A stretch of DNA of 64,000 bases from Sabellastarte sp. h YS-2021 (taxonomy: Eukaryota; Annelida; Polychaeta; Sabellida; Sabellidae). The stretch covers positions 120,167,530 through 120,231,529 of the forward strand of contig OZ024931.1 in assembly GCA_964017235.1 (NCBI GenBank). Reading direction: 5' to 3'. Below are positions 6,805 through 61,271 of this stretch, in pieces (the stretch's first letter is position 1; every line of letters begins with the position of its first letter). The notes under the pieces are model-generated. The model had not been told where the DNA came from. It did not search any database and saw only the letters and a list, made by a program, of their open reading frames with translations. The position numbers and the translations under genes were made by a program.

Positions 6805-6905
6805 AGCAATAGTTTTCAAGTTACAACTAATTTACTCAACAGTGAGGACCTGAAAGTAAGCCATTGCTCATCTATGCAATAGTTTTTAAGTTAAAACTGA
6901 CAAGG
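6805..6905. repeat. Satellite A, remnant right of DIRS-B1
   Basis: Continues the monomer interrupted at 2163 (GCAATAGTTTTCAAG, then ACTCAACAGTGAGGACCTGA), followed by a short duplicated piece of the next monomer. Confidence 0.75.
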
Positions 6906-6934
6906 TCACTGACTATCATAAGTGGCTTTGTACA

Positions 6935-8070
6935 TCCCCTCAGGAACAGCTACTTGATGAGGGCATTACAAGCACTTATGCAAAAAAGAAAGCAGTAGAA
7001 ATGATCAGAACTCAGAAATCTCTAGGCTTCTTCAACAGCCTTTTCTTGGTTCCCAAGCCATACAATCGGTGGAAACGTATCCTGGACCTCAGTACCTTAC
7101 AACAAATTTCTGTAGACAGAGAAATTCAAACTGGAAACATCATAAAGCACAAGGATTTCCCTCGAGATAGGGGAATGGGTAACATCCATAGACTTCAAGG
7201 ATACCTATTTCTATATCGCAAAAACCACACAAACCAGGAAGTACTTGCATTTCCACATCCAGGGTCAATCCTACAAAGACCTACCGTTTGGCCCCTATAA
7301 AATTTAGGGTAGTGGTGAAGTAGGTCACACTGATGGCTTTATACAGGGGTATATGAATCCACCAGTACCTAGGTGACTGGTTGGTCAGAGCCACATCCAA
7401 CCAGGCCTATCTCCAGCTTGCATAGACTCTAGTAGCCTTGGGTGGATTTCATGAAAGGTCTCAGACTTAGCCCAGTCTCAGGCTGAGCCGCTGGCTCAAA
7501 TCTGAACCTTTTGGCTCAGCTAAGTCTTTGTCTCAAATGGTTTTCACAGAAGGGGTCCCAGTCCCAAGCTTATCACAATGGTTTTCTGTGTCATGTGACC
7601 ATTTTTTGTAGTCAAAATATTCTACTGATGGCATATATGTTCCTTGTTTGACACATAATATCTCTGGTCAAATACCATTTTGCAATGGGAAACCTTGTAA
7701 ACACGTAATAACACCCAAAGACTACTTCAGCAGGTTGTTTTATATACTTGTACCCTATTTTCAGCCATTTCAAATTTTGAAGTGAAGAAAGAATTATGGC
7801 GGCCATATTTGAGCCTTTGTTTACAATACTTAAGCCCACTTTCAACCAGTCTCAACATTTGAGCCAGTGGCTCAGCCAAAGCTGAGACTGAGACCTTTTG
7901 TGAAATTCATTAAATCTGATCCCATGGACTCAAGTAAAATGTTCCAATAATTTGAGACAAAAGTCACAAGTTTGAGCCTGAGACCGGGCTAAGACCTTTT
8001 GTGAAATCCGCCCCTTGTGTCCGGAACTTGGCTGGATAATAAACACAGACAAATCGGAACTGAAACCCAA
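6935..8070 (+). pseudogene. DIRS A-type reverse transcriptase relic, split by a MITE
   Basis: Plus-strand relic of a further DIRS copy. Up to 7439 it reads KKAVEMIRTQKSLGFFNSLF, LVPKPYNRWKRILDLSTL, VKEVTLMALYRGI and HQYLGDWLVRA. The YLDD box has become YLGD. At 7440 a 574-bp insertion starts. The RT resumes at 8014 with CPELGWIINTDKSELKPKQ, which is contiguous with the left piece in the family alignment. No gag or recombinase accompanies it, so it is an isolated fragment. Confidence 0.8.
7440..8013. mobile_element. MITE-like DNA transposon inside the RT relic
   Basis: Ends are imperfect inverted repeats of about 40 bp: GGGTGGATTTCATGAAAGGT on the left, complement of ACCTTTTGTGAAATCCGCCC on the right. 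Both continue into TTAGCCCAGTCTCAGGCT-like sequence. A CTT triplet flanks both sides, a likely 3-bp target duplication. The interior has no transposase and contains a second inverted pair (GAGCC..GGCTC). The superfamily is not identified. Confidence 0.7.
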
Positions 8071-8104
8071 ACAATCAATTTTGAAGGGAGGGCAAGGTCA
8101 GACT

Positions 8105-8475
8105 AACTCTGGAATAGTGTAGAAGTAAAGTCCAAGAGTGAGTACTTATGACCTCTATAAACAGACGGTACTTCTGGCAGATAACAGACCCGTGCGGAAG
8201 CATGAGTCCATTATGCCGGAAATAGTGTCCTTTTATAGAGGCCACAAAGTACGAACCTGTGGACTTTATTTCTATTATAAAAACCGGATTCATTTATTAA
8301 TCCATAAATAATATTATAAATATGTTTTTTACACACCTATTTGTCGCACTATATTTTGTCTGTATCGTTTGGTTCTCTATTATCGACGATTGTCTATTTA
8401 TTGCTTCAGATAAATGGACCCAAAAATATGCACACTGCATTGTTTTATGTAGTCTGCAAACTTCCGGTCTTTATA
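8105..8475. mobile_element. Foldback element, copy 1
   Basis: Shares its full length with 52432-52787. The first ~155 bp fold on themselves (AAGTACTTATGACCTCTATA against TATAGAGGCCACAAAGTAC). The second part runs from TTATAAAAACCGG to CCGGTCTTTATAA. No coding capacity. The two copies in one 64-kb window show it is a dispersed repeat. Confidence 0.65.
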
Positions 8476-19481: not shown

Positions 19482-21240
19482 ATGTCCACCCCATGAACCT
19501 TTTGCCAAATTACAAGACCCTGTTTCATTTGTATAATATATCAATGATGCTTAAATATTTATTAGTGTAGATGTAAATTATTTCAGCTTCATGCCTTTTT
19601 GCATTGGTTGGGTCGAAAATTTTGACGAAATCACTCTATCTTGCACGGTTAAGAAGATAGAAGCAAATTCCTGTTTTTCTATTTTTGGCAAAAATTCGAA
19701 AAATCAAAATGGCCGCCATTTTTGGGGAGGGGAAAATTTTTTGAAAATTGCAAAGAGTACATTTCTTGGATACCCTATGGGTTGAAAATTTCGACGAAAT
19801 CGCTCTATCTCGCACGGTTAAGGAGATAGAAGCAAATTTGTGTTTTGCCATTTTTGGCAAAAATTCGAAAATTCAAAATGGCCGCCACTTTGGGGGAGGG
19901 GAAAATTTTTTGAAAATTGCAAAGATTACATTCCTTAGATACCCTGTGGGTCGAAAATTTCGACGAAATTGCTCTATCTCGCACGGTTAAGGAGATAGAA
20001 GCAAATTTGTGTTTTGCCATTTTTGGCAAAAATTCGAAAAATCAAAATGGCCGCCATTTTTGGGGAGGGGAAAATTTTTTGAAAATTGCAAAGATTACAT
20101 TCCTTATATACCCTGTGGGTCGAAAATTTCGACGAAATCGCTCTATCTCGCACGGTTAAGGAGATAGAAGCAAATTTGTGTTTTGCCATTTTTGGCAAAA
20201 ATTCGAAAATTCAAAATGGCCGCCATTTTGGGGAGGGGAAAATTTTTTGAAAATTGCAAACATTACATTCCTTAGATACCCTGTGGGTCGAAAATTTTGA
20301 CGAAATCGCTCTATCTCGCACGGTTAAGGAGATAGAAGCAAATTTGTGTTTTGCCATTTTTGGCAAAAATTCGAAAAAAATCCAAAATGGCCGCCAATTT
20401 TAGGGCAGGGGAAAATTTTTTGAAAATTGCAAACATTACATTCCTTAGATACCCTGTGGGTCGAAAATTTCGACGAAATCGCTCTATCTCGCACGGTTAA
20501 GGAGATAGAAGCAAATTTGTGTTTTGCCATTTTTGGCAAAAATTCGAAAATTCAAAATGGCCGCCATTTTGGGGAGGGGAATTTTTTTTGAAAATTGCAA
20601 AGATTACATTCCTTAGAGTCGAAAATTTTGACGAAATTGCTCTATCTCGCACGGTTAAGGAGATAGAAGCAAATTTGTGTTTTGCCATTTTTGGCAAAAA
20701 TTCGAAAATTCAAAATGGCCGCCATTTTTGGGGAGGGGAAAATTTTTTGAAACTTGCAAAGAGTACATTCCTTAGATACCCTATGGGTCGAAAATTTCGA
20801 CGAAACCGCTCTATCTCGCACGGTTTAGAAGATATGAGCACATTTGCCTTTTTCAGTATTCAAAATAGCTAATTACTCATTTATTTAATTAATTACTCAC
20901 TCATCTATGAGGCAATTCCCCCCAAAAGTAATCCCATACAAGCTATTAACCCAATGAACCTCCATACCAAATTTCAGAAAGCTAGGCTTAATAGCATTCC
21001 TTAAAATGTCTGGAAACCAAAGAGCTACTCAAAAGTAGCAAAGTAGCTATTACTCAGTTAGCTATAGAGCTATCATCACCAAAAGCAATCCCATACAAGC
21101 TATTAACCCAATAAACCTGCATGCCAAATTTGGTAAAGATAGGATAAGAACTGTTGCCTAAAATGTCTGGAAACCAAGTGGGACGCCGGACGGCGGAAAA
21201 AGCAAAAATAATATGTCCACCCTCCAGTGGGGTGGACATA
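19482..21240 (+). mobile_element. Satellite-cored element H1 (Helentron-like)
   Basis: The left end carries ATGTCCACCCCA (19482-19493). The right end is a perfect 11-bp-stem hairpin, TATGTCCACCC / GGGTGGACATA (21212-21240), whose 3' arm is the inverse of the left end. Between them lies a 169-bp tandem array (19590-20850) and a unique tail with a GGACGCCGGACGGCGG word. Short inverted subterminal repeats, a 3' hairpin, no obvious target duplication and a satellite core are typical of non-autonomous Helentrons. It interrupts the B2 gag, so it is younger than B2. No Rep/helicase is present. Confidence 0.65.
19590..20850. repeat. Satellite B, 169-bp tandem array
   Basis: Seven or so monomers with GATACCCTGTGGGTCGAAAA at 19769, 19938, 20107, 20275, 20448 and 20775 (one monomer near 20619 lost ~10 bp). 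The unit continues GACGAAATCGCTCTATCTCG, CACGGTTAAGGAGATAGAAG, TTTTGCCATTTTTGGCAAAA, ATTCAAAATGGCCGCCATTT. The copies are highly similar, implying recent amplification. The open frames in it are repeat artefacts. Confidence 0.9.
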
Positions 21241-28369: not shown

Positions 28370-29578
28370 CGTGTGTGAAAGCTCTTCCAAAAGTAGGTGA
28401 ATGAGTTATTTGAGAAAAATTGGCTATCTGCAATACTATTAAGAGATAATTCACATTTACTCATTTTGAGTAGGTGAATAATTAGCTATGGGTCTGAAAC
28501 TTCACCAAGTGAAAGCTCTCCCAAAAGTAGGTGAATGAGTATTTGATAAAAATTGGGTATCCGCAATACTTTTACAGATAATTAGCATTTACTCATTTTG
28601 AGTAGGTGAATAAATATCTATGGGTCTGAAACTTCACGGAGTGAAAGCTCTCCCAAAAGTAGGTGAATGAGTTATTTGAGAAAAATTGGCTATCTGCAAT
28701 ACTTTTAGAAATAATTCGCATTTACTCATTTTGAGTAGGTGAGTAATTAGCTATGGGTCTGAAACTTCACCAAGTGAAAGCTCTCCCAAAAGTAGGTGAA
28801 TGATTTATTTGAGAAAAATTGGCTATCTGCAATGCTTTTAGAGATAATTTGCATTTACTCATTTTGAGTAGGTGAGTAATTAGCTATGGGTCTGAAACTT
28901 CACCATGTGAAAGCTCTCCCACAAGTAGATGAATGAGTTATTTGATAAAAATTGGGTATCCGCAATACTTTTACAGATAATTAGCATTTACTCATTTTGA
29001 GTAGGTGAATAATTAGCTATGGGTCTGAAACTTCACGGAGTGAAAGCTCTCCCAAAAGTAGGTGAATGAGTTATTTGAGAAAAATTGGCTATCTGCAATA
29101 CTTTTAGAGATAATTCGCATTTACTCATTTTGAGTAGGTGAGTAATTATCTACGGGTCTGAAACTTTACCATGTGAAAGCTCTCCCAAAAGTACATGAAT
29201 GAGTTATTTGATAAAAATTGGGTATCCCCAATAGTTTTTGAGGATAATTAGCATTTATTCATTTTGAGTAGGTGAGTAATTAGCTACGGGTCTGAAACTT
29301 CAAGTGAAAGCTCTCCCAAAAGTAGGTGAATGAGTTATTTGAGAAAAATTGGCTATCTGCAATACTTTTAGAGGTAATTCGCATTTACTCATTTTGAGTA
29401 GGTGAGCAATTAGCTATGGGTCTGAAACTTCACCATGTGAAAGCTCTTCCAAAAGTAGATGAATGAGTTATTTGATAAAAATTGGGTATCCACAATAGTT
29501 TTAGAGATAATTAGCATTTACTCATTTTGAGTAGGTGAATAATTAGCTACGGGTCTGAAACTTCACCGAGTGAAAGCT
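28370..29578. repeat. Satellite E, 133-bp array
   Basis: About nine copies of ~133 bp: GTGAAAGCTCTCCCAAAAGT, AGGTGAATGAGTTATTTGAG, AAAAATTGGCTATCTGCAAT, TTACTCATTTTGAGTAGGTG, GGGTCTGAAACTTCACCA. Copies start near 28511, 28643, 28776, 28909 and 29042, and so on. Two variants (GAGAAAAATTGGCTATCTGC and GATAAAAATTGGGTATCCGC) alternate irregularly. Confidence 0.9.
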
Positions 29579-29584
29579 CTTTGG

Positions 29585-30690
29585 GATAGCTGCTCTGCAG
29601 AGATACTCTGAAGATCAAAAATTTTGTCGAAATCACTCTATGTAGCAATGTTTTCGAGATATTAGCATTTTTGTGTTTTGCAATTTTTCGAAAATTCAAA
29701 ATGGCCGCCATTTTTGGCAAGATAAAATTTTTTGAAAATTGGCATGGCTACTCTGCAGAGATACCCTGTGGGTCAAAAATTTCGTCGAAATCGCTCTATC
29801 TAGCAGGGTTTTCGAGATGTAAGCATTTTTATGTTTTGCAATTTTTGCGAAAAATTCGAAAATTCAAAATGGCTGCCATTTTTGGCGAGACAAAATTTTT
29901 TTGAAAATAGGCATGGCTACTCTGCACGGATACCCTGTGGGTCAAAAATTTCGTCGAAATCGCTCTATCTAATACGGTTTTCGAGATATAAGCATTTTTA
30001 TGTTTTGCAATTTTTGCGAAAAATTCGAAAATTCAAAATGGCTGCCATTTTTGGCGAGACAAAATTTTTTTGAAAATAGGCATGGCTACACTGCACAGAT
30101 ACCCTGTGGGTCAAAAATTTCATCGAAATCGATCTATCTAGCACGGTTTTAGAGATATAAGCATTTCTGTGTTTTGCAATTTTTGCGCAAAATACGAAAA
30201 TTCAAAATGGCCGCCATTTTTGGCGAGACAAAATTTTTTTGAAAATGGACATGGCTACTCTGCACGGATACCCTGTGGGTCAAAAATTTCGTCGAAATCG
30301 CTCTATCTAGTACGGTTTTCGAGATACAAGCATTTTTATGTTTTGCAATTTTTGAGAAAAATTCGAAAATTCAAAATGGCCGCCAATTTTTGGCGAGAAA
30401 ATTTTTTTTTCAAAATTGGGATAACTACTGTGCAGAGATACCCCATGGATCAAAAATTTCATCGAAATCGCTCTATCTAGCACGGTTTTCGAGATATAAG
30501 CATTTCTGTGTTTTGCAATTTTTGCGAAAAATTTGAAAATGCAAAATGGCCGCCATTTTTGGCGAGACAAAATTTTTTGAAAATTGGGATAACTACTCTG
30601 CAGAGATACCCTGTGGGTCAAAAATTTCGTCGAAATCACTCTATCTAGCACGGTTTTCGAGATATAAGCATTTTTGTGTTTTCCTTATTT
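29585..30690. repeat. Satellite D, 169-bp main block
   Basis: GATACCCTGTGGGTCAAAAA at about 29760, 29930, 30099, 30268, 30438 and 30606. The unit continues TTTCGTCGAAATCGCTCTAT, CTAGCACGGTTTTCGAGATA, TTCAAAATGGCCGCCATTTT, TGGCGAGACAAAATTTTTTT. Closely related to satellite B. Confidence 0.9.
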
Positions 30691-31074
30691 GGAAAATTCG
30701 TAATGATTAATTAATCATTAATTACTCGGCCATTTCTTACCCAATCAATGCCAAAATCTAAGGATTTCCAGATTTTAATAGAATGAATGTATTTGCCAAG
30801 TTTCAGGTGAATTGATAAAATTCCTTTCAAGTCATCATCCGGACAAGCTTCCCCATCAAAAAAAGACATTTTTGGTCATGTGACCTCTCTGATTGGTTGA
30901 AATGTCACTGCAGTATATTCAAAAAAATTCCCCAAGGCTACTGCCTAAACCTGCCAAATTTGAAAAGAATCTGCCTGACAGTTACAGAGTTATAAGGAAA
31001 ACAAAATGCGGAGCCGGCGGAGCCTGAAGGTCTCCCATACACAAACAAGCGTCCCTTGCGGGACGCTTAATCAT

Positions 31075-38695: not shown

Positions 38696-39759
38696 CAGTA
38701 TCCTCGTACGACCTTGAAAAAGGGGTCCACGGTCAAATCCAACCACACAAAAACATTCCCAGCCCATGATTTCCTATAGGTTGGTTTACCATCCCAAACC
38801 TCTAGGACCAATAATAAGCGAGTTATAAGCACTTTTAAGTTTGGCTGTCCTTATTTGACCTTGAAGGAGGGGTCCAAAGGTTAAATCCGACCACACCAAA
38901 TGATTCCCAGCCCATGATTTCCTGTAGGTTGGTTTACCATCCCAAACCTGTAGGACCAATAACAAGCGAGTTATAAGCAATTTTAAGTTTGGCTATCCTC
39001 AACTGACCTTGAAGGAGGGGTCCAAGGTCAAATCTGACCACACCAAAAGAATCCCAGCCCATGATTTCCTATATGTTGTTTTACCATCCCAAACCTCTAA
39101 GACCAATAATAAGCGAGTTATAAGCACTTTTAAGTTTGGCTATCCTCGTTTGACCTTGAAGAAGAGGTCCAAGATCAAATCGGATCACATCAACAGATTC
39201 CCAGCCCATGATTTCCTATATGTCTGTTTACCATCCCAAACCTCTAGGACCAATAATAAGTGAGTTATAAGCACTTTTAAGTTTGGCTATCCTCATTTGA
39301 CCTTGAAGGAAGGGTCAAATGTCATATCTGACCACACCAAAAGATTCCCAGCCTATGATTTCCTACAAGTTGGTTTACCATCCCAAACCTCTAGGACCAA
39401 TAATAAGGGAGATATAAGCACTTTTCATGACTGACAAAGAAACACCTGTGGCGGCCATCTTGTTTTTCAAACTGAGGCCAAAAATATTCCCAGTCAAGAT
39501 TTTATAATGAGGAACATATCCTGCGAATTTGAGATCTCTACCTATAATACCCTTTCCTCTAGAGGGCCAACAAAAGTCCTTGTTTAAAGTCAAATAAACG
39601 TCCCTGGCGGCCATCTTGTTTTTCAAAAATATTCCCAGGCAACATTTTATGGTTATTAATATATTCTGCAAACTTGAGAAGGCTAGCTATAATATTTTTT
39701 TCATTAGAGCGGTAATGGTGAAATCTCTCTACACACTGCGGCTATCCAGTGGATGCAAT
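38696..39759 (+). mobile_element. Satellite-cored element G1 (Helentron-like)
   Basis: Core of ~148-bp units (38700-39420): TTGACCTTGAAGGAGGGGTC, CAAGGTCAAATCCGACCACA, CCCAGCCCATGATTTCCTAT, AACCTCTAGGACCAATAATA, AGCGAGTTATAAGCACTTTT. Then a ~330-bp tail with two GGCGGCCATCTTGTTTTTCA words and CTCTCTACACACTGCGGC, ending TCCAGTGGATGCA. G2 and G3 share core and tail. It splits satellite A sequence and so is younger than the array. Confidence 0.65.
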
Positions 39760-41562
39760 GATTTACTCAATAGTGAGAACCTGAAAGTAGCTATTGCTCA
39801 GCTATAGCATGACATAGAGGTCTCCAATTTCACTATGATATAACTGACCAAAAATTATGTGAATAACATATTTAAACAAAATACTCTAAATGTAATAGTT
39901 TTCAAGTTACAACTGATTTACTCAAGAGTGATAACCTCAAAGTAGCTATTACTCAGCTATGCAATGAGCTACATGTCTGAATTTTTACTATATTATAGCT
40001 AACCCAAAAGTAGGTGAACAACATATTTAAGCAAAATACTGTAAATGAAATAGTTTTCAAGTTACAACTGATTTACTCAATAGTGAGAACCTGAAAATAG
40101 CTATTGCTCAGCTATGCCATGAGCTATAGGTCTGTAATTTCACTATGTTATAGCTGACCCAAAAGTAGGTGCACAACATATTTTAAAAAATACTCCAAAT
40201 GCAATATTTTTCAAGTTACAATTGATTTACTCAACAGTCAGTACCTGAAAATAGCTATTGCTCAGTTGTGCCATGAGCTACAGGTCTGTAATTTCACTAT
40301 GTTATAGCTGACCCAAAAGTACCTGAATAACATAGTTACACAAATTTCTGTAAATGCAATAGTTTTCAAGTTATAAATGATTTACTCAACAGTGATAACC
40401 TCAAAGTAGCTATTACTCAGCTATGCCATGAGCTACAGGTCTGAAATTTTACTATGTTATAGCTGACCCCAAAATAGATGAATAACATATTGAAACAAAA
40501 TACTGTAAATGCAATAGTTTTCAAGTAGTAAGTGATTTACTCAACAGTGATAACCTAAAAGTAGCTATTACTCAGCTATGCCATGAGCTTCAGGTCTGAA
40601 ATTTTACTATGTTATAGCTGACCCCAAAATAGGTGAATAACATAGGAAACAAAATACTCTAAATGCAATACTTTTCAAGTTATAAGTGATTTACTCAACA
40701 GTGATAACCTAAAAGTAGCTATTACTCAGCTATGCCATGAGCTATAGGTCTGTAATTTCACTATGTTATAGCTGACCCAAAAGTAGGTGAACAACATATT
40801 TTAACAAAATACTCCAAATGCAATATTTTTCAAGTTACAACGGATTTACTCAACATACAGTACCTGAAAATACCTATTGCTCAGTTGTGCCATGAGCTAC
40901 AGGTCTGTAATTTCACTATGTTATAGCTGACCCAAAAGTAGCTGAATAATGTATTTACACAAATTTCTGTAAATGCAATTGTTTTCAAGTTATAAGTGAT
41001 TTACTCAACAGTGATAACCTCAAAGTAGCTATTACTCAGCTATGCCATGAGCTACAGGTCTGAAATTTTACAATGTTATAGCTGACCCCAAAATAGGTGA
41101 ATAACATTGAAACAAAATACTCTAAATGTAATAGTTTTCAAGTTATAAGTGATTTACTCAACAGTGATAACCTAAAAGTAGCTATTACTCAGCTATGCCA
41201 TGAGCTACATGTCTGAAATTTTACTATGTTATAGCTGACCCAAAAGTAGGTGAACAACATATTTAAGCAAAATACTGTAAATGCAATACTTTTCAAGTTA
41301 CAACTGATTTACTCAGTAGTGAGAACCTGAAAATAGCTATTGCTCAGCTATGCCATGAGCTATAGGTCTGTAATTTCACTATGTTATAGCTGACCCAAAA
41401 GTAGGTGAACAACATATTTTAACAAAATACTCCAAATGCAATATTTTTCAAGTTACAACTGATTTACTCAACATACAGTACCTGAAAATAGCTATTGCTC
41501 AGTTGTGCCATGAGCTACAGGTCTGTAATTTCACTATGTTATAGCTGAGCCAAAAGTAGCTA
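39760..41562. repeat. Satellite A with four-monomer higher-order repeat
   Basis: Eleven full monomers of 153-155 bp, with TTCAAG at 39901, 40056, 40210, 40365, 40520, 40674, 40829, 40984, 41137, 41292 and 41447. Variants recur every fourth monomer: 40210/40829/41447 share CAGTACCTGAAAATA and CTCAGTTGTGCC; 40365/40984 share CACAAATTTCTGTAAATGCA and GATAACCTCAAAG; 40520/41137 share GATAACCTAAAAG. The super-period is 617-619 bp. The array continues after DIRS-A1 at 47768. Confidence 0.9.
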
Positions 41563-41607
41563 AATTGCAAATTTTAATTAGTAAATTAAATTTTTATTAG
41601 TTAATAC

Positions 41608-41779
41608 CTTACCTACCAGACGATAGCTATAGCCCGGCGCCAGCCGGTCCCGCCAAACGAAAGAAAAAGACGTCCCGGGTTTCACCCCCGGCAGGACCGG
41701 CACACTACAATCCACTCGCCAGGTGGCCTAGTTCCTGCCTCACTCGCCAGAGGGACGTGACGTCATAGCATCTTTTTCG
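41608..41779. repeat. DIRS-A1 left inverted terminal repeat
   Basis: CTTACCTACCAGACGATAGC ... GTGACGTCATAGCATCTTTT. Near-perfect complement of 47578-47749 (one visible difference, ACTCGCCAG against ACTCACCAG). It contains a palindromic TGACGTCA site near 41757, which also matches the A2 arm apart from point changes. Confidence 0.9.
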
Positions 41780-41835
41780 TCCCTAAGATTGAATGATGAA
41801 GGCTGGAAGCGGGGAAGGCCGGGTGGGAATTTCCC

Positions 41836-41931
41836 GTCTGGTAGTTAAGGTATTAACTAATAAAAATTTAATTTACTAATTAAAATTTGCAATTTCATTG
41901 CGTTAATACATCTTACCTACCAGACGATAGC
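41836..41931. repeat. DIRS-A1 internal complementary region
   Basis: GTCTGGTAGTTAAGGTATTA ... ATTAAAATTTGC complements the left end (41563-41630), and AATTTCATTGCGTTAATACA, TCTTACCTACCAGACGATAG complements the right end (47727-47767). The two halves meet without spacer. This spells the end-to-end junction expected in a circular DNA intermediate. Confidence 0.9.
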
Positions 41932-42057
41932 TAGAATAACTACCCAGTGGAAGGAGGGCAGCCTTCTGAGGATTGGAGAAACTCTTATATTATACCTAGG
42001 TGTGAGGTTCTAGTCCTTTGAGGAGACATGTTAGTCTCAAGGGTAACTAGACCCACC

Positions 42058-42283: not shown

Positions 42284-43407
42284 CTAGTGGTGGATTTGCT
42301 GGGCAGCCACCACAGGACCCAAGTGAAAAAGCTCCTTATCTGCCCAGGCAACATCCTTAAGGTAAAATTGTGTAAAGGTGTTGTGGGACTTCCAGTGGCA
42401 TGCTGCTAGAATCTGGTCCAGAGATATGTCACCTTGAAAGGCTTTGGAGGCCGCAAAGGCCCTAACATCATGGGCCTTAACCTGATGTAAGGTCAAGGAA
42501 TCTTGGTCAGAGAGATCATAACACAACACTACTGTTTGTTTGATCCAGGACGAGATAGTGGCAGGAGAGATGTCCTTGTTAAACCCTTGTTTGAATGAAA
42601 CAAAAACTAACTCCTTTCCCGTTCTTAGGTCCTGCGTTTTGTCCAGGTAGTAGCGAAGAGCCCGAACGGGGCAAAGGGATCTGTCTTCCTTTAAAGACTT
42701 ATCCAGAGTGGGGGCTAAGGCTGGAATGACCACAGGGGCCACGCACTCTGGTCCCTCTTTTGCCAAGTGATTTTTCGCCAAGAAGCTTGGTGAAGGGTAG
42801 AGGGAAACTTTGGACCAGTCAGCTTGGTGTCTGATATTTTTGTTTAACCAAGCGTGAATCTCACTCCTGCGTTTTCCTGAAGCCAGGGCTAGGAGAAAAA
42901 CAGTTTTGAAAGTAAGGTGCTTCAGAGAAGCCTTTCTGAGTGGTTCAAAAGGCGCTTTTGTAAGCTGGTGTAAAACCAGGGAGAGGTTCCAAGCAGGAAC
43001 CCCCCGGCGCCCTTTGGGTCTATCTCTGTGAAAACTGTCTAACAGTCTAGTCAAATTTTCATCCTTGCCGACATTAACCGAGGTATTTCCCAGTTTGTCT
43101 GCAATGGCTGACCTGTAACCATCAATAGTGCTGGGCTGGAGATTCTTCTCCTGGAAAAGGTGCAGGAGGAAATCTGCTATTTGTTTTATAGATGGGTTCC
43201 TGAAGTCCACCTGACTTGTTTCACACCATCTGACAAAAACGGCCCACTTCGCTTCGTAGACTGTTCTGGTTGAACGTCTTTGAGGCGCCTCAATTCTTGA
43301 CGCCACTGGGCTAGAGAACCCCTGCTCCTTGATTGTCTGGGCTCTAGGAGCCAGGCATGGAGATTTAGGTTTGTCAGATCCCTGTGACGTGCCTTGTTGA
43401 AAGGTTG
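42284..43407 (-). CDS. DIRS-A1 tyrosine recombinase
   Basis: Catalyses strand exchange between the circular element DNA and the target; acts in the nucleus. Numbering the 340 codons from 43306: an N-terminal core-binding domain (1-110, with TVYEAKWAVFVRWCE and SFHRDRP), then the catalytic domain with SGKRRSEIHAW (Arg at about 147), HDVR (279-282), CHWKSHNTF (Trp 305) and QFYLKD (nucleophile Tyr 315). All key residues are present. The frame is open upstream to about 43407 without any ATG, overlapping the end of the RT frame by about 34 nt and lying +1 to it, so I infer expression by frameshift from pol. It ends with TAG. Similar, broken copies are in A2, B1 and B2. Confidence 0.9.
43373..43379 (-). 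promoter_or_regulatory. Possible +1 frameshift site (ATC TGA C)
   Basis: The RT frame stops at TGA (43374-43376) followed by C. Skipping one base there gives GAC AAA, the open recombinase frame. Stop codons of the UGA-C type are slow to terminate, and +1 shifts at UGA occur in bacterial RF2 and in eukaryotic antizyme genes. The recombinase frame lacks an ATG in the overlap. The assignment is an inference from frame geometry. Confidence 0.4.
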
Positions 43408-45518
43408 GTCACTAGATCTGGGTGGTGTGGAAGACAAAGAGGAACCCTCGCAGATAGTTCCACTAGGTCCCAAAACCAAGGCATGTTGGGCCATCCCGGG
43501 GCAATCAGGATTGCTCTGCGATACCAGTGATCTGACAGCTTGCTGACCACCTTCCCCATCAGAGACACTGGGGGGAAGAGGTACATGTCCAGGTCCTCCC
43601 AGGATAATGTCAGAGCATCCACTGACCAGGCCTTTGGGTCTGGAATTGGGGACACAAATTGAACTAGCTTGCAGTTGTACCTTGTTGCAAACATGTCCAC
43701 TCGGGGATAATGCCAGGTTTGACAAAGGAGGTCGAAGGTCTCTTGATGGAGGGACCACTCCGTCTGAATGACCTGCCTTTGGCGAGACAATTTGTCTGCA
43801 ATTACATTCAGACGGCCTGGAATGTGTCTGGCCTTCAGTACTATTTGATTGAGGCTGCACCAACATAGGAGCCGCCAAAGAAGGGCACAGAGTGAGCCTG
43901 ACCTCATACCTCCTTCCTTGTTGATGTATGCCACAACCGTGGTGTTGTCTGTGGCAATCAGGACGACCTTTCCTTGCACTAAATGTTGGAATCTTTTTAG
44001 TGCTAACAACACGGCTTTTAGTTCTAAGAAGTTTATGTGCAACTTGCTTTCGGGCACTGACCAAGTACCGCTTGCTGTGAAGTCGCCTAAGTGAGCACCC
44101 CAGCCTTCTTTTGAGGCGTCTGTAAAGATTTGAACTGCGTGTCGCAGGGGGTGTAAGGGCTGACCCTTTAGGACATTTTCCTCTTGGGTCCACCACTGCA
44201 GGTACTGATGGAGAGACCTCGGAATTGGGATCTCCTTTTCCAGAGATTCTGGGACTCTCCAGTGTTTCTTGAGGTGCCACTGAATAGGTCTCATGTGCAG
44301 TCTGCCTAGGGTCACCTGTTTTTCTGTCGCAGTGAGAAGACCTATAAGAGACATGAAAGTTCTCACTGGGCAAGATCTGTTCTGTAAAAGCACTGTTATT
44401 TTCTGTTGAAGGGTTTCCCAACGATTTTGAGTAGGTCTGACTACTCCGTTGAGTAGGTCGTACTGGTAGCCTACGAAGTCGAAGACTTGTTGGGGTTCCA
44501 GTTCTGATTTTTGCATGTTTACCATCCAGCCCAACTCCTGGCAGAGGGCTAGGAGGGATTGGGTTCCCTGGTGGCAAGATTCTTTGGTAGGGGCTCGAAT
44601 CAACCAGTCGTCTAGGTACTGGTGGATTCTTATACCCTGTGACTGAGCCATTAACTTGACCTCTTTGACCACACCAGTGAACTCCATGGGAGCTGTTGAC
44701 AGGCCAAAGGGAAGTGCCCGAAACTGGTACGACTGGTTCTGAAAGTGGAACCTGAGGAATTTTCGGGATGTGTAGTGAATTGGGATGTGGAAGTAGGCGT
44801 CGCTGAAGTCTAGCGATGTCACCCACTCCTCTTGTTGTAGAGAGGTCCGGATTGTCTCTGGAGTCTCCATTTTGAATGTTTTTACGCATAAAAACTGATT
44901 TAGAGTACTGAGATCCAAGATTGGCCGCCACTTGTGGTTCGGCTTTGGGACAATGAACAGTCTGTTGAAAAAGGCTAGTGAGGTTTGAACCCTGACCCTC
45001 TCTACTGCCTTTTTCTCGATCAGAGCTTGTACAGCTGCTTGCAAGTGGGAGTCTCTGATGGGGTTTGCATAGCCACTTACTATCAGGGGATCCCTTACTA
45101 AGGGAGGTCTTACTTTGAAGGGAAGAACATAACCCTCCTTTAATATGGACACTACTTTTGGGTTTGCACCCTTGTGAGCCCATATTTCCCAAAAACTCTG
45201 AAGACGTCCCCCCACTGGTTGGACACTTGCAACATTGGGGACATTTGGAACATTTGGAGCAGAAACAAAGTGACCGACAAAAGAAGCACTTTTCACACAC
45301 TTTATTTGACTTTTGATCTTTAATTTTGGTCTTACGTCTTTCTTTTGCGACTGCCACCTTGTTACAGTAGGTACACGACATACAACATGATAAGAAACAT
45401 TTGTTGGAACAGATACAAAAGAGTTTCTTGTTATGACACTTTGTACAGAACTGACTGGCCGGGCCACCGGCACCGGACTTGACTTGCAGTAATTGTCATT
45501 TATACTGTGTCTTCTCAT
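43374..45518 (-). CDS. DIRS-A1 RT, RNase H and Dam-like polyprotein
   Basis: Makes cDNA from element RNA. Numbering from the ATG at 45518 (714 codons): linker GGRLQSFWEIW (about 103-113), fingers LFIVPKPNHKWRPILDLS (186-204), catalytic LDFSDAYFHIPI (Asp 240), RALPFGLSTAP (267-277), YLDD (301-304), then RNase H with FTDAS (Asp 467), FLELKAV (Glu 499), IATDNTT (Asp 524) and VIADKLSR (Asp 575), all acidic residues kept. Residues 606-690 (YPRVDMFATRYN, FPPVSLMGKVV, LIAPGWPNMPWFWD) resemble the Dam-type methylase segment of DIRS elements. The first ~100 codons look like an out-of-frame shadow of the Cys-rich region, so the true N-terminus may come from the gag frame. Confidence 0.92.
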   Translation of the reverse strand: MRRHSINDNYCKSSPVPVARPVSSVQSVITRNSFVSVPTNVSYHVVCRVPTVTRWQSQKKDVRPKLKIKSQIKCVKSASFVGHFVSAPNVPNVPNVASVQPVGGRLQSFWEIWAHKGANPKVVSILKEGYVLPFKVRPPLVRDPLIVSGYANPIRDSHLQAAVQALIEKKAVERVRVQTSLAFFNRLFIVPKPNHKWRPILDLSTLNQFLCVKTFKMETPETIRTSLQQEEWVTSLDFSDAYFHIPIHYTSRKFLRFHFQNQSYQFRALPFGLSTAPMEFTGVVKEVKLMAQSQGIRIHQYLDDWLIRAPTKESCHQGTQSLLALCQELGWMVNMQKSELEPQQVFDFVGYQYDLLNGVVRPTQNRWETLQQKITVLLQNRSCPVRTFMSLIGLLTATEKQVTLGRLHMRPIQWHLKKHWRVPESLEKEIPIPRSLHQYLQWWTQEENVLKGQPLHPLRHAVQIFTDASKEGWGAHLGDFTASGTWSVPESKLHINFLELKAVLLALKRFQHLVQGKVVLIATDNTTVVAYINKEGGMRSGSLCALLWRLLCWCSLNQIVLKARHIPGRLNVIADKLSRQRQVIQTEWSLHQETFDLLCQTWHYPRVDMFATRYNCKLVQFVSPIPDPKAWSVDALTLSWEDLDMYLFPPVSLMGKVVSKLSDHWYRRAILIAPGWPNMPWFWDLVELSARVPLCLPHHPDLVTNLSTRHVTGI
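45208..45213 (-). other. Six-G run at the Cys-rich/RT frame switch
   Basis: Read on the minus strand as AGT GGG GGG ACG. Upstream, the gag frame encodes the Cys-rich domain (CKCPTSGG). Downstream, the +1 frame encodes GGRLQSFWEIW, the conserved RT start. A one-base change in this run would fuse them. A2 has both parts in one frame without a G-run. So it is a slippage site, a one-base mutation or an assembly error in a homopolymer. Confidence 0.6.
45209..45495 (-). CDS. DIRS-A1 Cys-rich extension in gag frame
   Basis: Begins right after the gag TGA with QLLQVKSGAGGPASQ, then about 77 codons with some 19 cysteines: FCTKC, FCICSNKC, SCCMSCTYC, a basic stretch (KERRKTKIKDQK), then VCEKCFFC, LCFCSKCSKCPQCCKC. 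Paired CxxC spacing suggests zinc-binding modules, perhaps for nucleic acid. No ATG precedes the first half, so readthrough of the gag stop is the simplest expression route. A2 has a related segment in its RT frame. The same frame stays open to 43186, but beyond 45209 it is a shadow of RT. Confidence 0.7.
45490..45498 (-). promoter_or_regulatory. Leaky-stop context TGA CAATTA at the gag end
   Basis: The gag frame ends TAT AAA TGA CAA TTA CTG. CAATTA fits CARYYA, the 3' context first defined at the tobacco mosaic virus readthrough stop and functional in other eukaryotic systems. Coding continues in frame into the Cys-rich extension. The motif is seen in the sequence; its activity here is inferred. 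Confidence 0.55.
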
Positions 45519-47463
45519 GAGCCATCTTGGTACCACGTCCGGGTTGACCACCCCGGCCTCTGCCCCGGCCTCTATTGCGGGAACCAAACGCTTTCCAAGC
45601 TGGTAGTTCCTTTCCGGCCTGAGAAGTTGATTTAGCAGTGTCTTGAGGTTTCCAACCAGTACTGTAGGGTTGGTATCTCTGCTTTCTGCCTCTACCGGCG
45701 AACCCCCCGCGGCCCGGGCCGGGCTGGGAGGTACGTCGGGAAGCTTCTAACTGGTTGATTTCATCCTCAGCCTTTCTAATAGCAGCGTCTGGAAATAATC
45801 CATATCCATTCAGGGGACAATTTCTCAAGGAATTGAAAGTATCTGGTTTAATCCCCGGTTTCACAGCTTCCAAATATGAGTCCCTACGGAGTAGGGTCAA
45901 ATTCGCCATCTGCACAAATGTAAAGTCTGCCAAATGTTGTAAGGATTTACCCATGGCGAAACTGACATTCTGGTTAAATGAGGATAAGTATAAAAGTTCA
46001 TCCAATGCACCTTGAGATTTGACAGAAGACTTGCCTTTCTTAAGTTCACTTTGTAAAATATGCAATTGTTCTTGGAAGGCATCCTGTATTTTGGTGATAC
46101 AGCGATTAAACCCCGCGGACTGGTTGCAAATATATGAAGACTCTTTTGCTGCTTTCTCCCACTTACGCATAGTGTCTTGTGATAGTGGGCGGGAAGGAGG
46201 CTGAGGAGAAGTAGAAGATATGGTTGAAATCCTGGGGAATGAACTGTTGATCTTCGCCGCATCATTTGGCCAAGAATTCACCGATTTACCCGGTCTAGAT
46301 GGATCTGTAGGCTCCGCCGGGTGTATCCCATACCATCTGTTCTGGGATTTTGGGGGTCTGAGGAACTGGTCCACATGAAGGCCACCTGGATCACTAGATT
46401 TTGAAGGATATCCTTCTATCAGTACAAGGTTTAGAGTTTCTAGTTTTCGGCACAACCAATCTTCCGGTGGAAGATCCACAGAAATCTTACCCACAGGCTG
46501 AGAACGGTGACCTGCCCAAGGATTATCAGTGCGGGATTGCGGAGAAAACTCCAGGTCAGGAATGTGTGTCCATCCCATGAACGCGCGGACACCTCTCACA
46601 GTCTCGCGGTAGTTTTGATCTTCACTGAGGACCCGGTCCGGGTCTGAGGTTTCTACGTCTGGGGATTCCTCTGCGTCAGATAACTCACCCTCTTCAAATG
46701 TTTCCTGAGGATTGACATCGCGGAAGGTGACCGGCCCGGAGCCGGAAGAAGGTTGTTGAAATGAAGATTGAGAGGAAGCAGACATAGCAGCTGACGAAAC
46801 AGTAGCCACCGGAGCAGGGTGTTTAAACATAGGTTCTGCTTCCGGGTAGAGGTTTTGAAGTGGAGATTGTCTGTCAGCAAAGGAAAAATCCTGATCTCTA
46901 GCCTCATCCGGGCCAACAGCCGGGCCGGCTGGGCCGGAAGAAGCAGAAGTAGTGACAAAAAAGGGTGTCTGGGAAAGAGCACCTGCTGGAGCAGCATGAG
47001 AGACCGGTACTTTGACCGGAGAGAATGACGGATTTTGTTGCACAGAAGGTGAGGGGCGATGTCCTACAGTAATAAGTGCCTCAAGCCTGGCCATACGAGT
47101 GGACCACTTTTCGTCCAGTTCTTGAAGTTCTTTCTTAAACTGAGGCACAGGAAGGGACAAATCCGGAGCAGAAGCAACAGAAACATCAGGTTCTTGTTCT
47201 GGCTGGGTATCAAGAACTACCACAGAAGACGGGTCGACTAATACCTCCTTTGCTTTAGCCTTTTCCTTTCTGAGTTTATAGGTAGGAGTACTTAACTTGA
47301 GCACTTGCTCCGGGGTAAGGACACTGCAAAAGTCACACTGCAGATTCTGAACACAAGGGTCATCACCATGTCCTTTCTCGCGACAACGCGCACACCTACT
47401 ATGTTTGTCAAATGAAGCCATAATATGGCCACACGCACCCTTTTTCTGTCCTGGAGATGCCAT
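45496..47463 (-). CDS. DIRS-A1 gag-like protein
   Basis: A 655-codon frame starting at MASPGQKKGACGHIM; the open frame extends a few codons upstream but without an ATG. Residues 11-46 hold a Cys/His array (CGH, CARCREKGHGDDPC, CDFC) conserved in B2 and B3, probably zinc-binding. A long Pro/Ser/Glu-rich middle follows, then a helical region with SSYICNQSAGFNRCITKIQD and LEASRRTSQPG. The last ~75 residues are RG-rich (GRGGFAGRGRK, RNRGRGRGRGGQPGRG), an RNA-binding type tail. It would package element RNA in the cytoplasm. It overlaps the RT ATG (45518) by 23 bases. Confidence 0.85.
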   Translation of the reverse strand: MASPGQKKGACGHIMASFDKHSRCARCREKGHGDDPCVQNLQCDFCSVLTPEQVLKLSTPTYKLRKEKAKAKEVLVDPSSVVVLDTQPEQEPDVSVASAPDLSLPVPQFKKELQELDEKWSTRMARLEALITVGHRPSPSVQQNPSFSPVKVPVSHAAPAGALSQTPFFVTTSASSGPAGPAVGPDEARDQDFSFADRQSPLQNLYPEAEPMFKHPAPVATVSSAAMSASSQSSFQQPSSGSGPVTFRDVNPQETFEEGELSDAEESPDVETSDPDRVLSEDQNYRETVRGVRAFMGWTHIPDLEFSPQSRTDNPWAGHRSQPVGKISVDLPPEDWLCRKLETLNLVLIEGYPSKSSDPGGLHVDQFLRPPKSQNRWYGIHPAEPTDPSRPGKSVNSWPNDAAKINSSFPRISTISSTSPQPPSRPLSQDTMRKWEKAAKESSYICNQSAGFNRCITKIQDAFQEQLHILQSELKKGKSSVKSQGALDELLYLSSFNQNVSFAMGKSLQHLADFTFVQMANLTLLRRDSYLEAVKPGIKPDTFNSLRNCPLNGYGLFPDAAIRKAEDEINQLEASRRTSQPGPGRGGFAGRGRKQRYQPYSTGWKPQDTAKSTSQAGKELPAWKAFGSRNRGRGRGRGGQPGRGTKMAHEKTQYK

Positions 47464-47577
47464 GATAGAAAAGTCAACTAATGGCAACTATTCCGACACA
47501 AATTAAACAGATATAACACAAAAATAAAACCAAAAGGTTCACAGATAAAAATCCACAACTTTAAATATCGCGCCAAA
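47464..47577 (-). other. DIRS-A1 leader between inverted repeat and gag
   Basis: About 110 bp of AT-rich untranslated DNA upstream of the gag ATG. The promoter presumably lies in the adjoining inverted repeat (TGACGTCA). Confidence 0.5.
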
Positions 47578-47749
47578 CGAAAAAGATGCTATGACGTCAC
47601 GTCCCTCTGGTGAGTGAGGCAGGAACTAGGCCACCTGGCGAGTGGATTGTAGTGTGCCGGTCCTGCCGGGGGTGAAACCCGGGACGTCTTTTTCTTTCGT
47701 TTGGCGGGACCGGCTGGCGCCGGGCTATAGCTATCGTCTGGTAGGTAAG
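47578..47749. repeat. DIRS-A1 right inverted terminal repeat
   Basis: CGAAAAAGATGCTATGACGT ... CTATCGTCTGGTAGGTAAG. Partner of 41608-41779. Lies upstream of gag, so it is the likely promoter region. Contains TGACGTCA near 47593-47600. Confidence 0.9.
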
Positions 47750-47767
47750 ATGTATTAACGCAATGAA

Positions 47768-48310
47768 ATAACATATTTACACAAATTTCTGTAAATGCAA
47801 TAGGTTTCAAGTTATAAGTGATTTACTCAACAGTGATAACCTCAAAGTAGCTATTACTCAGCTATGCCATGAGCTACAGATCTGAAATTTTACTATGTTA
47901 TAGCTGACCCCAAAATAGGTGAATAACATATTGAAACAAACTCTAAATGCAATAGTTTTCAAGTTATAAGTGATTTACTCAACAGTGATAACCTAAAAGT
48001 AGCTATTACTCAGCTATGCCATGAGCTACAGGTCTGAAATTTTACTATGTTATAGCTGACCCAAAAGTAGCTGAATAACATATTTATCCGAAATTCTCTA
48101 AATGCAATAGTTTTCGAGTTACAAGTGATTTTACTCAAGATGGTAGTTACTGAAAAGCCCAAAAGTAGCTATTACTCACTTAGCTATTGAGACAGACACC
48201 CAATTTACTCACCATGTTATAGCTATGAAAAAAGTAGCTGAATAACATATTTTGACAAAATGCTCTAAATGCAACACTTTTCAAGTTATAAGTGATTTAG
48301 TGCATGATTT
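47768..48310. repeat. Satellite A, continuation right of DIRS-A1
   Basis: TTCAAG/TTCGAG at 47806, 47958, 48113 and 48280. The first two units are the third and fourth types of the higher-order repeat, as predicted from the left side; the later ones are diverged, marking the array edge. Confidence 0.85.
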
Positions 48311-59747: not shown

Positions 59748-61271
59748 TGTATCCACCAGAAGAAAACTCACCAAAGCCATTCTAACATCGCTTAACCTTG
59801 AAGGAGAAGCCCAAGGTGAAATCTGACCATATCAAAAGATTCTTTGCCCATGATTTCCTATAGGTTGGTGTGACACTGCAAACCTCTAGGAATACGAATA
59901 AGCAAGATATAAACACTAATTTTGGCAATCCTCATTTGACCTTGAAAGAGGGGCCAAAGGTCAAATCCGATCACACCAAAAGATTCCGAGCCCAAGATTT
60001 CCTAGATTTTGGTTTACCATTGCAAAGCTCTAGGACCAATAATAAGTGAGTTATAAGCACTTTTAAGTTTGGCTATCCTCGTTTGACCTTGATGGAGGGT
60101 TCAAGGTCAAATCCAACCACAGCAATAGATTCCCAACACATGATTTTGTGTACTATCTTCGTTTGACCTTGAAGGAGGGGTCCAAGGTCAAATCCGACCA
60201 CAGCGATAGATTCCCAGCCCATGATTTCCTATATGTTGGTTTACCATCCCAAACATCTAGGACCAATAATAAGCGAGTTATAAGCACTTTTAAGTTGGGC
60301 TATCCTCATTTGACCTTGAAGGAAGGGTCCAAGGTCAAATCAGACCACACCAGAAGATTCCCAGCCCATGAATTCCAATAGATTGGTTTACCATCCCAAA
60401 CCTCTAGGACCAATAATAAGCGAGTTATAAGCAATTTTAAGTTTGGCTATCCTCGTTTGACCTTGAAGGAGGGGTCCAAGGTCAAATCCGATCACACCAA
60501 AAGATTCCCAGCCCATGATTTCCTATAGGGTGTTTTACCATCCCAAACCTCTAGGACCAATAATAAGCAAGTTCTAAGCACTTTTAAGTTTGGCTATGCT
60601 CGTTTGACCTTGAAGGAGGGGTCCAAGGTCAAATCTGACCACACCAAAAGATTCCCAGCCCATGATTTCCTATAGGTTGGTTTACCATCCCAAACCTCTA
60701 GGACCAATAATAAGCGAGTTATAAACACTTTTAAGTTTGGCTATCCTCGTTTGACCTTGAAGGAGGGGTCCAAGGTCAAATCTGACCACACCAAAAGATT
60801 CCCAGCCTATGATTTCCTATAGGTTGGTTTACCATCCCAAACCTCTAGGACCAATAATAAGGGAGATATAAGCACTTTTCATGACTGCAAAGAAACGCCT
60901 GTGGCGGCCATCTTGTTTTTCAAAATGAGGCCAAAAATATTCCCAGTCAATATTTTATAATGAGGAACATATCCTGCGAATTTGAGATCTCTACCTATAA
61001 TACCCTTTGCTCTAGAGGGCCACCAAATGTCCTTGTTTAAAAGTCGAAAAACGCCCGTGGCGGCCATCTTGTTTTTCAAAATGACGCCAAAAATATTCCC
61101 AGGCAAGATTTTATGGCTATGAATATATCCTGCAAATTTGAGAAGGCTAGCTATAATATTTTTTTCGTTAGAGCGGTAACGGTGAAATCTCTCTACACAC
61201 TGCGGCGGCAGCGGCGTAGGCGTAACGAAGTCAAATCCATAGTATCCACTGGATGCTATCCGGTGAATACA
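59748..61271 (+). mobile_element. Satellite-cored element G3 (Helentron-like)
   Basis: The left end TGTATCCACCAGA (59748-59760) and right end TCCGGTGAATACA (61259-61271) are imperfect inverses of the G2 type. The core of about eight ~147-bp units (59795-60880) includes one short unit (about 78 bp, 60083-60161). The tail has two GGCGGCCATCTTGTTTTTCA words, CTCTCTACACACTGCGGCGG and a hairpin ATAGTATCCA-C-TGGATGCTAT (61239-61259) at the 3' end. Confidence 0.7.

Follow-up and report, generated by a model that had tools for sequence, protein, structure and literature searches.

A putative leaky gag stop followed in frame by a cysteine-rich domain and, in relatives, by the tyrosine recombinase in an annelid DIRS1-like retrotransposon

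Introduction

How does a DIRS1-like retrotransposon translate a recombinase gene that is buried in its pol gene? A long overlap between the pol and tyrosine recombinase (YR) genes, which leaves the YR catalytic domain outside the overlap at the 3' end, is described for DIRS1-like elements in the available part of PMC3266345, whose survey found the overlap in half of 28 elements and in none from Mollusca. The overlap is also described in the accessible text of PMC6681497. These DIRS papers, in the portions available, place the recombinase ORF over pol in another frame and give no account of its translation or of the reason for the overlap. In Dictyostelium, certain mutants yielded GFP fusions of each of the three DIRS-1 ORFs (PMC5633606, in part), a result that has no bearing on how the ORFs are started.

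The same question is raised by a locus in a 64,000-nucleotide stretch of DNA from the sabellid annelid Sabellastarte sp., referred to here as the window. An earlier note on this DNA, made from the letters alone, had proposed that a gag stop is read through into a cysteine-rich domain. The analysis reported here suggests that this stop is very probably a programmed leaky stop yielding a Gag-Cys-recombinase fusion. A leaky gag stop would be a concrete answer both to how YR is translated and to why the two genes overlap so deeply.

Architecture of the element

The element occupies the minus strand from about 47749 to 41608 and is a DIRS1-like retrotransposon (Table 1). It has inverted terminal repeats and an internal complementary region (I1, I2 and I3), the latter found in a repeat search to pair through 41835-41895 with 41562-41622 and through 41883-41933 with 47728-47778. 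RT and RNase H were recognized in pol by Pfam matches to RVT_1 (PF00078, 3.2e-22) and RT_RNaseH (PF17917, 3.2e-7). The YR region was observed to match PF00589 (5.8e-4) and PF02899 (2.4e-4), both under the curated cut-offs, and was counted as a tyrosine recombinase on these matches. For a methyltransferase domain, a weak match to PF12237 (E 0.012) was obtained. RT/RNase H, YR, inverted terminal repeats, an internal complementary region and an ORF in the gag position coming first are all shared with DIRS-1 of Dictyostelium and its relatives. Gag is 96% identical to P0011 (19 members) and 97% identical to P0012 (381 members), the related predicted proteins being given here as P numbers. In the window copy, a frameshift near 43380 displaces the YR part and also removes the tail of pol.

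Copies of one tandem repeat of about 155 bp lie on either side of the element (40503-41580 and 47767-48299), as if the element had been inserted into the array.

Table 1. Coordinates of the features of the element in the window
Feature	Position	Strand	Remarks
Terminal inverted repeat arm, gag end	47577..47749	.	173 nt, 99% complementary to 41608-41780 (I1)
Terminal inverted repeat arm, recombinase end	41608..41780	.	I1
Internal complementary region	41835..41933	.	I2, I3; matches both element ends
gag ORF	45499..47463	-	655 codons; ATG at 47463
gag TGA stop	45496..45498	-	AAA before it
CAATTA, CARYYA readthrough hexamer	45490..45495	-	abuts the stop
Cys-rich domain, gag frame	45223..45447	-	19 Cys in 75 codons
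gag frame past the TGA	43188..45495	-	stop-free for 769 codons; overlies the pol ORF
pol ORF (RT, RNase H)	43374..45587	-	+1 relative to gag; shortened in the window copy; first ATG 45518
Tyrosine recombinase (YR) region	42284..43306	-	displaced by the frameshift near 43380; shares the frame of the Cys domain in relatives

The gag stop and its context

The sequence around the gag stop reads TAT AAA TGA CAA TTA CTG on the minus strand. The ending AAA TGA CAA TTA, followed by a Cys-rich frame as the earlier note had described it, was confirmed, and gag was found to comprise 655 codons. Because the window contains nine TGACARYYA matches over its two strands, the gag stop site included, a single match is weak when taken alone; the weight of the motif at this stop derives from its conservation in relatives and from the stop-free gag frame.

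The hexamer lies directly 3' of the stop (45495-45490), as it does in type I (CAR YYA) readthrough, for example in tobacco mosaic virus (TMV; PMC11166343 and PMC2754532, both in part). The gag stop is TGA, whereas the type I signal is defined, in the accessible text of PMC11166343, as CAR YYA after UAG, UGA sites there usually being accompanied by CGG or CUA. In the available part of PMC2754532, a UGA in the TMV context is described as leaky in plants, weaker than UAG and with Trp inserted. Being TGA and not UAG, the gag stop may therefore act like a type I site while lying outside strict membership of the class. One correction to the proposal that CARYYA promotes readthrough here concerns the stop, since CARYYA is documented as a UAG context. 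The window element further differs from TMV in being a retrotransposon and in that its readthrough would make a recombinase fusion.

Folding of the sequence after the stop, computed without pseudoknots, gave no RNA structure beyond that of shuffled sequences (z -0.67, 0.71 and 0.55), and a 3' stimulatory hairpin was rejected on this ground. Selenocysteine insertion at the UGA was also rejected, an Rfam scan of the window at gathering thresholds having given zero matches.

Conservation of the stop context in related proteins

The relatives are predicted proteins only, so that the hexamer in them is read indirectly; nucleotide relatives were found neither in the viral contig nor in the genome contig collections searched. 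Ninety-five pol-frame proteins covering the site, in 21 families (75% single linkage) from one host species or several, all fit xxA AAT GAC ARY YAN. Their pol-frame motif is [ITVL]-N-D-[N/S]-[Y/Q/H], and CARYYA permits the variants seen in it (Ser for Asn, His or Gln for Tyr); Phe, though permitted at the last position by the search pattern, occurs in none of the 95. Since that pattern already limited the variable positions to Ile/Thr/Val/Leu, Asn/Ser and Tyr/Gln/His/Phe, the independent check lies in the proteins that lack the motif. The pol search gave 143 matches, and of the 120 listed, to which the figures refer, 93 contain the motif (two more, found only in the gag search, complete the 95). 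The other 27 start downstream or jump over the site; P0064 and P0087 are among those that jump it, and P0066 begins in the gag frame past the stop. Among the gag-search proteins, none spans the site in the pol frame and lacks the motif. Candidates in these searches are selected by shared five-residue words, and the pol search thus favours motif-bearing relatives; the gag search, which is independent of the pol motif and whose query overlaps that of the first search, agrees with it. The best five-codon stretch has an entropy of 0.31 bits, compared with 1.65-3.3 bits for each flanking column listed. These values were calculated over ungapped columns, which are in part misaligned at a distance from the motif, so that the 2.77-bit mean is inflated.

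The gag search gave 76 matches from candidates of about 415-1321 aa, a range that sense-codon copies with one long fused frame would escape. The 57 clusters counted are those left after exclusion of 16 Cys-frame proteins, P0064 and the pol-gag chimeras P0013 and P0014, which also terminate in TQYK. [YF]K was found at the gag end, directly before the stop, in 35 of the 57 (1460 of 1501 members), and the remaining 22 have other ends, which, where a cause is visible, are due to truncation or a frame jump. Four of these 22, P0002, P0003, P0159 and P0168 (five members), pass the stop, reading K-W-Q with Gln next in all four, and a search without the W-Q requirement yielded no residue other than Trp at the stop position. 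The Trp is either a real TGG or a TGA called Trp by the gene caller. As gag ends in K-stop and the pol frame reads Asn (AAY) and then Asp (GAY), the stop can only be TGA. The first base of the hexamer may be C or T, Asp GAC and GAT being indistinguishable from the pol peptide; in the window copy and the four continuing proteins, Gln is the next residue after the stop. On this evidence, the stop region is an island of invariance, seen via the overlapping pol frame. The two checks that bear on it, both run at the protein level, favoured the earlier note: the context is compatible with CARYYA in every relative seen to cover the site, and most clusters share the position of the gag end.

The Cys-rich domain in the putative readthrough frame

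The 19 Cys span extension codons 17-91, and the first in-frame ATG after the gag stop is extension codon 39 (45381), leaving the early Cys region with no in-frame ATG after the stop. These results agree with the earlier description of a domain of about 77 codons with some 19 Cys and no ATG ahead of its first half. The domain is common to 18 related proteins, seven of them being near copies of the family in the window. Among the proteins that extend far enough, Cys ahead of the internal Met recur in P0002, P0017, P0021 and P0022, and less regularly in P0003.

In which frame is this region selected? Both frames are known for four families (P0004/P0057, P0015/P0075, P0018/P0079 and P0019/P0082), and each frame pair fits one DNA over 200 codons, with the two proteins of a pair coming from different copies. 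Families C and D are near-identical, so that only three families are independent. In the Cys region, conservation in the gag frame was found to exceed that in the pol frame (A-B, 0.79 vs 0.62; A-C, 0.70 vs 0.49; B-C, 0.80 vs 0.68), with nucleotide changes clustering at the gag-frame third position. In the RT region, it was the pol frame that was more conserved (0.88, 0.89 and 0.88 vs 0.69, 0.81 and 0.62), with changes concentrated at the pol-frame third position. The contrast between the two regions gave chi-square p values of 0.0003, 0.013 and 0.0003. Judged from these substitutions, the Cys domain is selected in the gag frame, and beyond it selection moves to the pol frame. The purifying selection expected on the Cys frame is thus present at the protein level. 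The fold predicted for the Cys extension had a mean pLDDT of 39.8, too poor for use. The domain may bind zinc or nucleic acid.

The open gag frame and its continuation into the recombinase in relatives

The extension had been placed as ending at 45209; the gag frame was found to run without a stop from the TGA to 43188, a length of 769 codons. As a null expectation, the pol protein was held fixed and synonymous codons were either permuted or drawn by gag+YR usage, with 5000 simulations. Over the 600 pol codons beyond the Cys domain, the gag frame contains no stop, compared with 20.7 or 34.2 expected, a result reached in 0 of 5000 simulations under either null. Counted from the pol ATG (709 codons), it contains one, the TGA itself, compared with 29.5 or 42.0 expected. 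The third frame over the same stretch contains 50 stops, above the expected 37.8 or 29.9. This deficit indicates that the gag frame was kept open, at least until recently in the history of the window copy.

The continuity with YR is seen in relatives. P0004 (701 members) is a single frame of 1032 aa from within the Cys domain to the end of YR, and its layout is also that of P0015 (58 members), P0019 (423) and P0020 (59). P0022 (one member) is an exception, with the pol-frame motif, Cys domain and RT in one frame, and P0140 likewise joins the Cys domain and RT after the pol-frame motif; these two single proteins are tentatively taken as indel copies. Fused RT+YR proteins of about 1089 aa, mostly single members, also occur; those that were read, such as P0025, P0029, P0057 and P0075, switch frame at differing places and are therefore taken as indel copies or assembly errors and rejected as the native layout. 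The Gag-Cys fusion by readthrough that had been envisaged is thus supported by the sequences, except that the likely product is longer, namely Gag-Cys-(RT overlap)-recombinase.

Proposed mechanism and alternative explanations

Adenines before a stop favour readthrough. At AAA UGA, most ribosomes would terminate and release Gag, and a minority would decode UGA as an amino acid owing to CARYYA and perhaps also to the adenines. The latter ribosomes would stay in frame through the Cys domain, then through the stretch over the RT/RNase H gene and finally through the tyrosine recombinase, giving a Gag-Cys-recombinase fusion of about 1700 residues. Because it would arise by minority readthrough, the integration enzyme would be limited in amount and attached to Gag, its low ratio to Gag resembling the arrangement that retroviruses use for Pol. 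We infer the occurrence and efficiency of readthrough as well as the size and packaging of the fusion. The UGA-CARYYA site is apparently held inside a dual-coding region, and the Cys-rich domain is confined to the read-through frame.

What else could maintain the island? One alternative is a +1 frameshift at AAA UGA C, in which the Lys-tRNA would slip by one base and the ribosome would pass into the pol frame at GAC to give Gag-Pol, the gag frame beyond being incidental. Its geometry is apt: pol lies +1 to gag, its GAC codon falls precisely at the site, and 76 open codons of the pol frame precede ATG 45518 (45747-45518, minus strand), overlapping the gag end. Moreover, no Met near the pol start is shared, an internal Met at most seven codons upstream of the motif being present in 3 of 21 representatives in a count that ignores first residues. 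However, a frameshift leaves the gag-frame selection on the Cys domain, the stop-free frame and its run into YR unexplained, and the observed substitutions fit the readthrough hexamer; as the reason for the island it is unlikely, and a +1 slip at AAA UGA is a possible addition to readthrough, not a replacement for it. One stop might then serve two recodings: its readthrough would yield Gag-Cys-recombinase, and slippage to +1 on that AAA UGA would yield Gag-RT/RNase H/MT. This combined scheme is a tentative and rather doubtful one; if it is true, both enzymes would be Gag fusions from deeply overlapping frames, and the long pol/YR overlaps of many DIRS1-like elements would be its footprint.

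Alternatively, the gag stop could be genuine and the Cys-YR frame could have a translation of its own, begun at an internal AUG or a CUG, driven by an IRES or made from a spliced RNA. P0004, P0015 and P0019 do begin at a Met within the Cys domain, which may reflect the gene caller only, but P0002, P0003, P0017 and P0021 lack this Met, the proteins that extend far enough repeatedly have Cys ahead of it, and conservation of the stop context is left unexplained, all of which makes separate translation quite improbable. It is very improbable that the island is kept for the pol peptide INDNYC alone, for example as a processing site, with CARYYA as a by-product. That peptide is nearly invariant, yet its Tyr varies to His and Gln and never, among the 95 proteins, to the Phe that the pattern allowed; the flanking pol residues are highly variable, and gag ends at the same site in 35 of 57 clusters. 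Constraint on the pol peptide could contribute, since the island also encodes pol residues. Readthrough is preferred because it alone, of the explanations weighed here, accounts at once for the hexamer, for selection on the Cys frame, for the lack of stops in the overlapping frame and for the YR continuity.

Relation to known systems

SIRE1 is a retroelement that uses readthrough to express a downstream product. Gammaretroviruses are also named as readthrough users in the available part of PMC11166343. Both differ from the window element in their downstream products and in their stops or 3' signals. Tca2 of Candida is, like the window element, a retrotransposon in which gag is followed by UGA and then by an enzyme ORF, but its flanks directed no readthrough in yeast, according to the accessible text of PMC2194720, whereas the window element has a conserved hexamer after the stop.

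As far as its text was available, the DIRS literature checked mentions neither a leaky gag stop nor a Cys domain behind it nor continuity of Gag with YR. In that text, the DIRS papers, including PMC3266345, PMC5633606 and PMC6681497, do not contain the term 'stop codon', and PMC5633606 does not contain 'readthrough'. A limited full-text search gave no paper tying DIRS tyrosine recombinase retrotransposons to stop-codon readthrough, and a full-text search gave none joining retrotransposon, CARYYA and readthrough; DIRS appeared in no title among the listed matches for papers on retrotransposon, gag and readthrough. No earlier description of gag-stop readthrough in DIRS was found in this limited literature search, and it would represent a new use of a known recoding mechanism.

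Other copies and repeats in the window

Among the other pol-like copies in the window, only one was resolved to a comparable gag end. This older, decayed relative lies on the minus strand (12151-9117), with pol matches from 11955, YR matches to 9117 and a recognisable gag-end region. At its stop (12151-12149), the context TGA TAA TTT breaks the hexamer, and remnants of Cys pairs follow. Further degraded pol/YR-like pieces were observed at 17408-14870 and 5261-3017 on the minus strand and at 6873-8215 on the plus strand; in the two minus-strand copies, when translated, no Cys-rich extension was seen upstream of RT. Other large tandem arrays are located at 19609-20846, 28375-30700, 38699-41559 and 59782-61206, and some of their units are similar at distant places.
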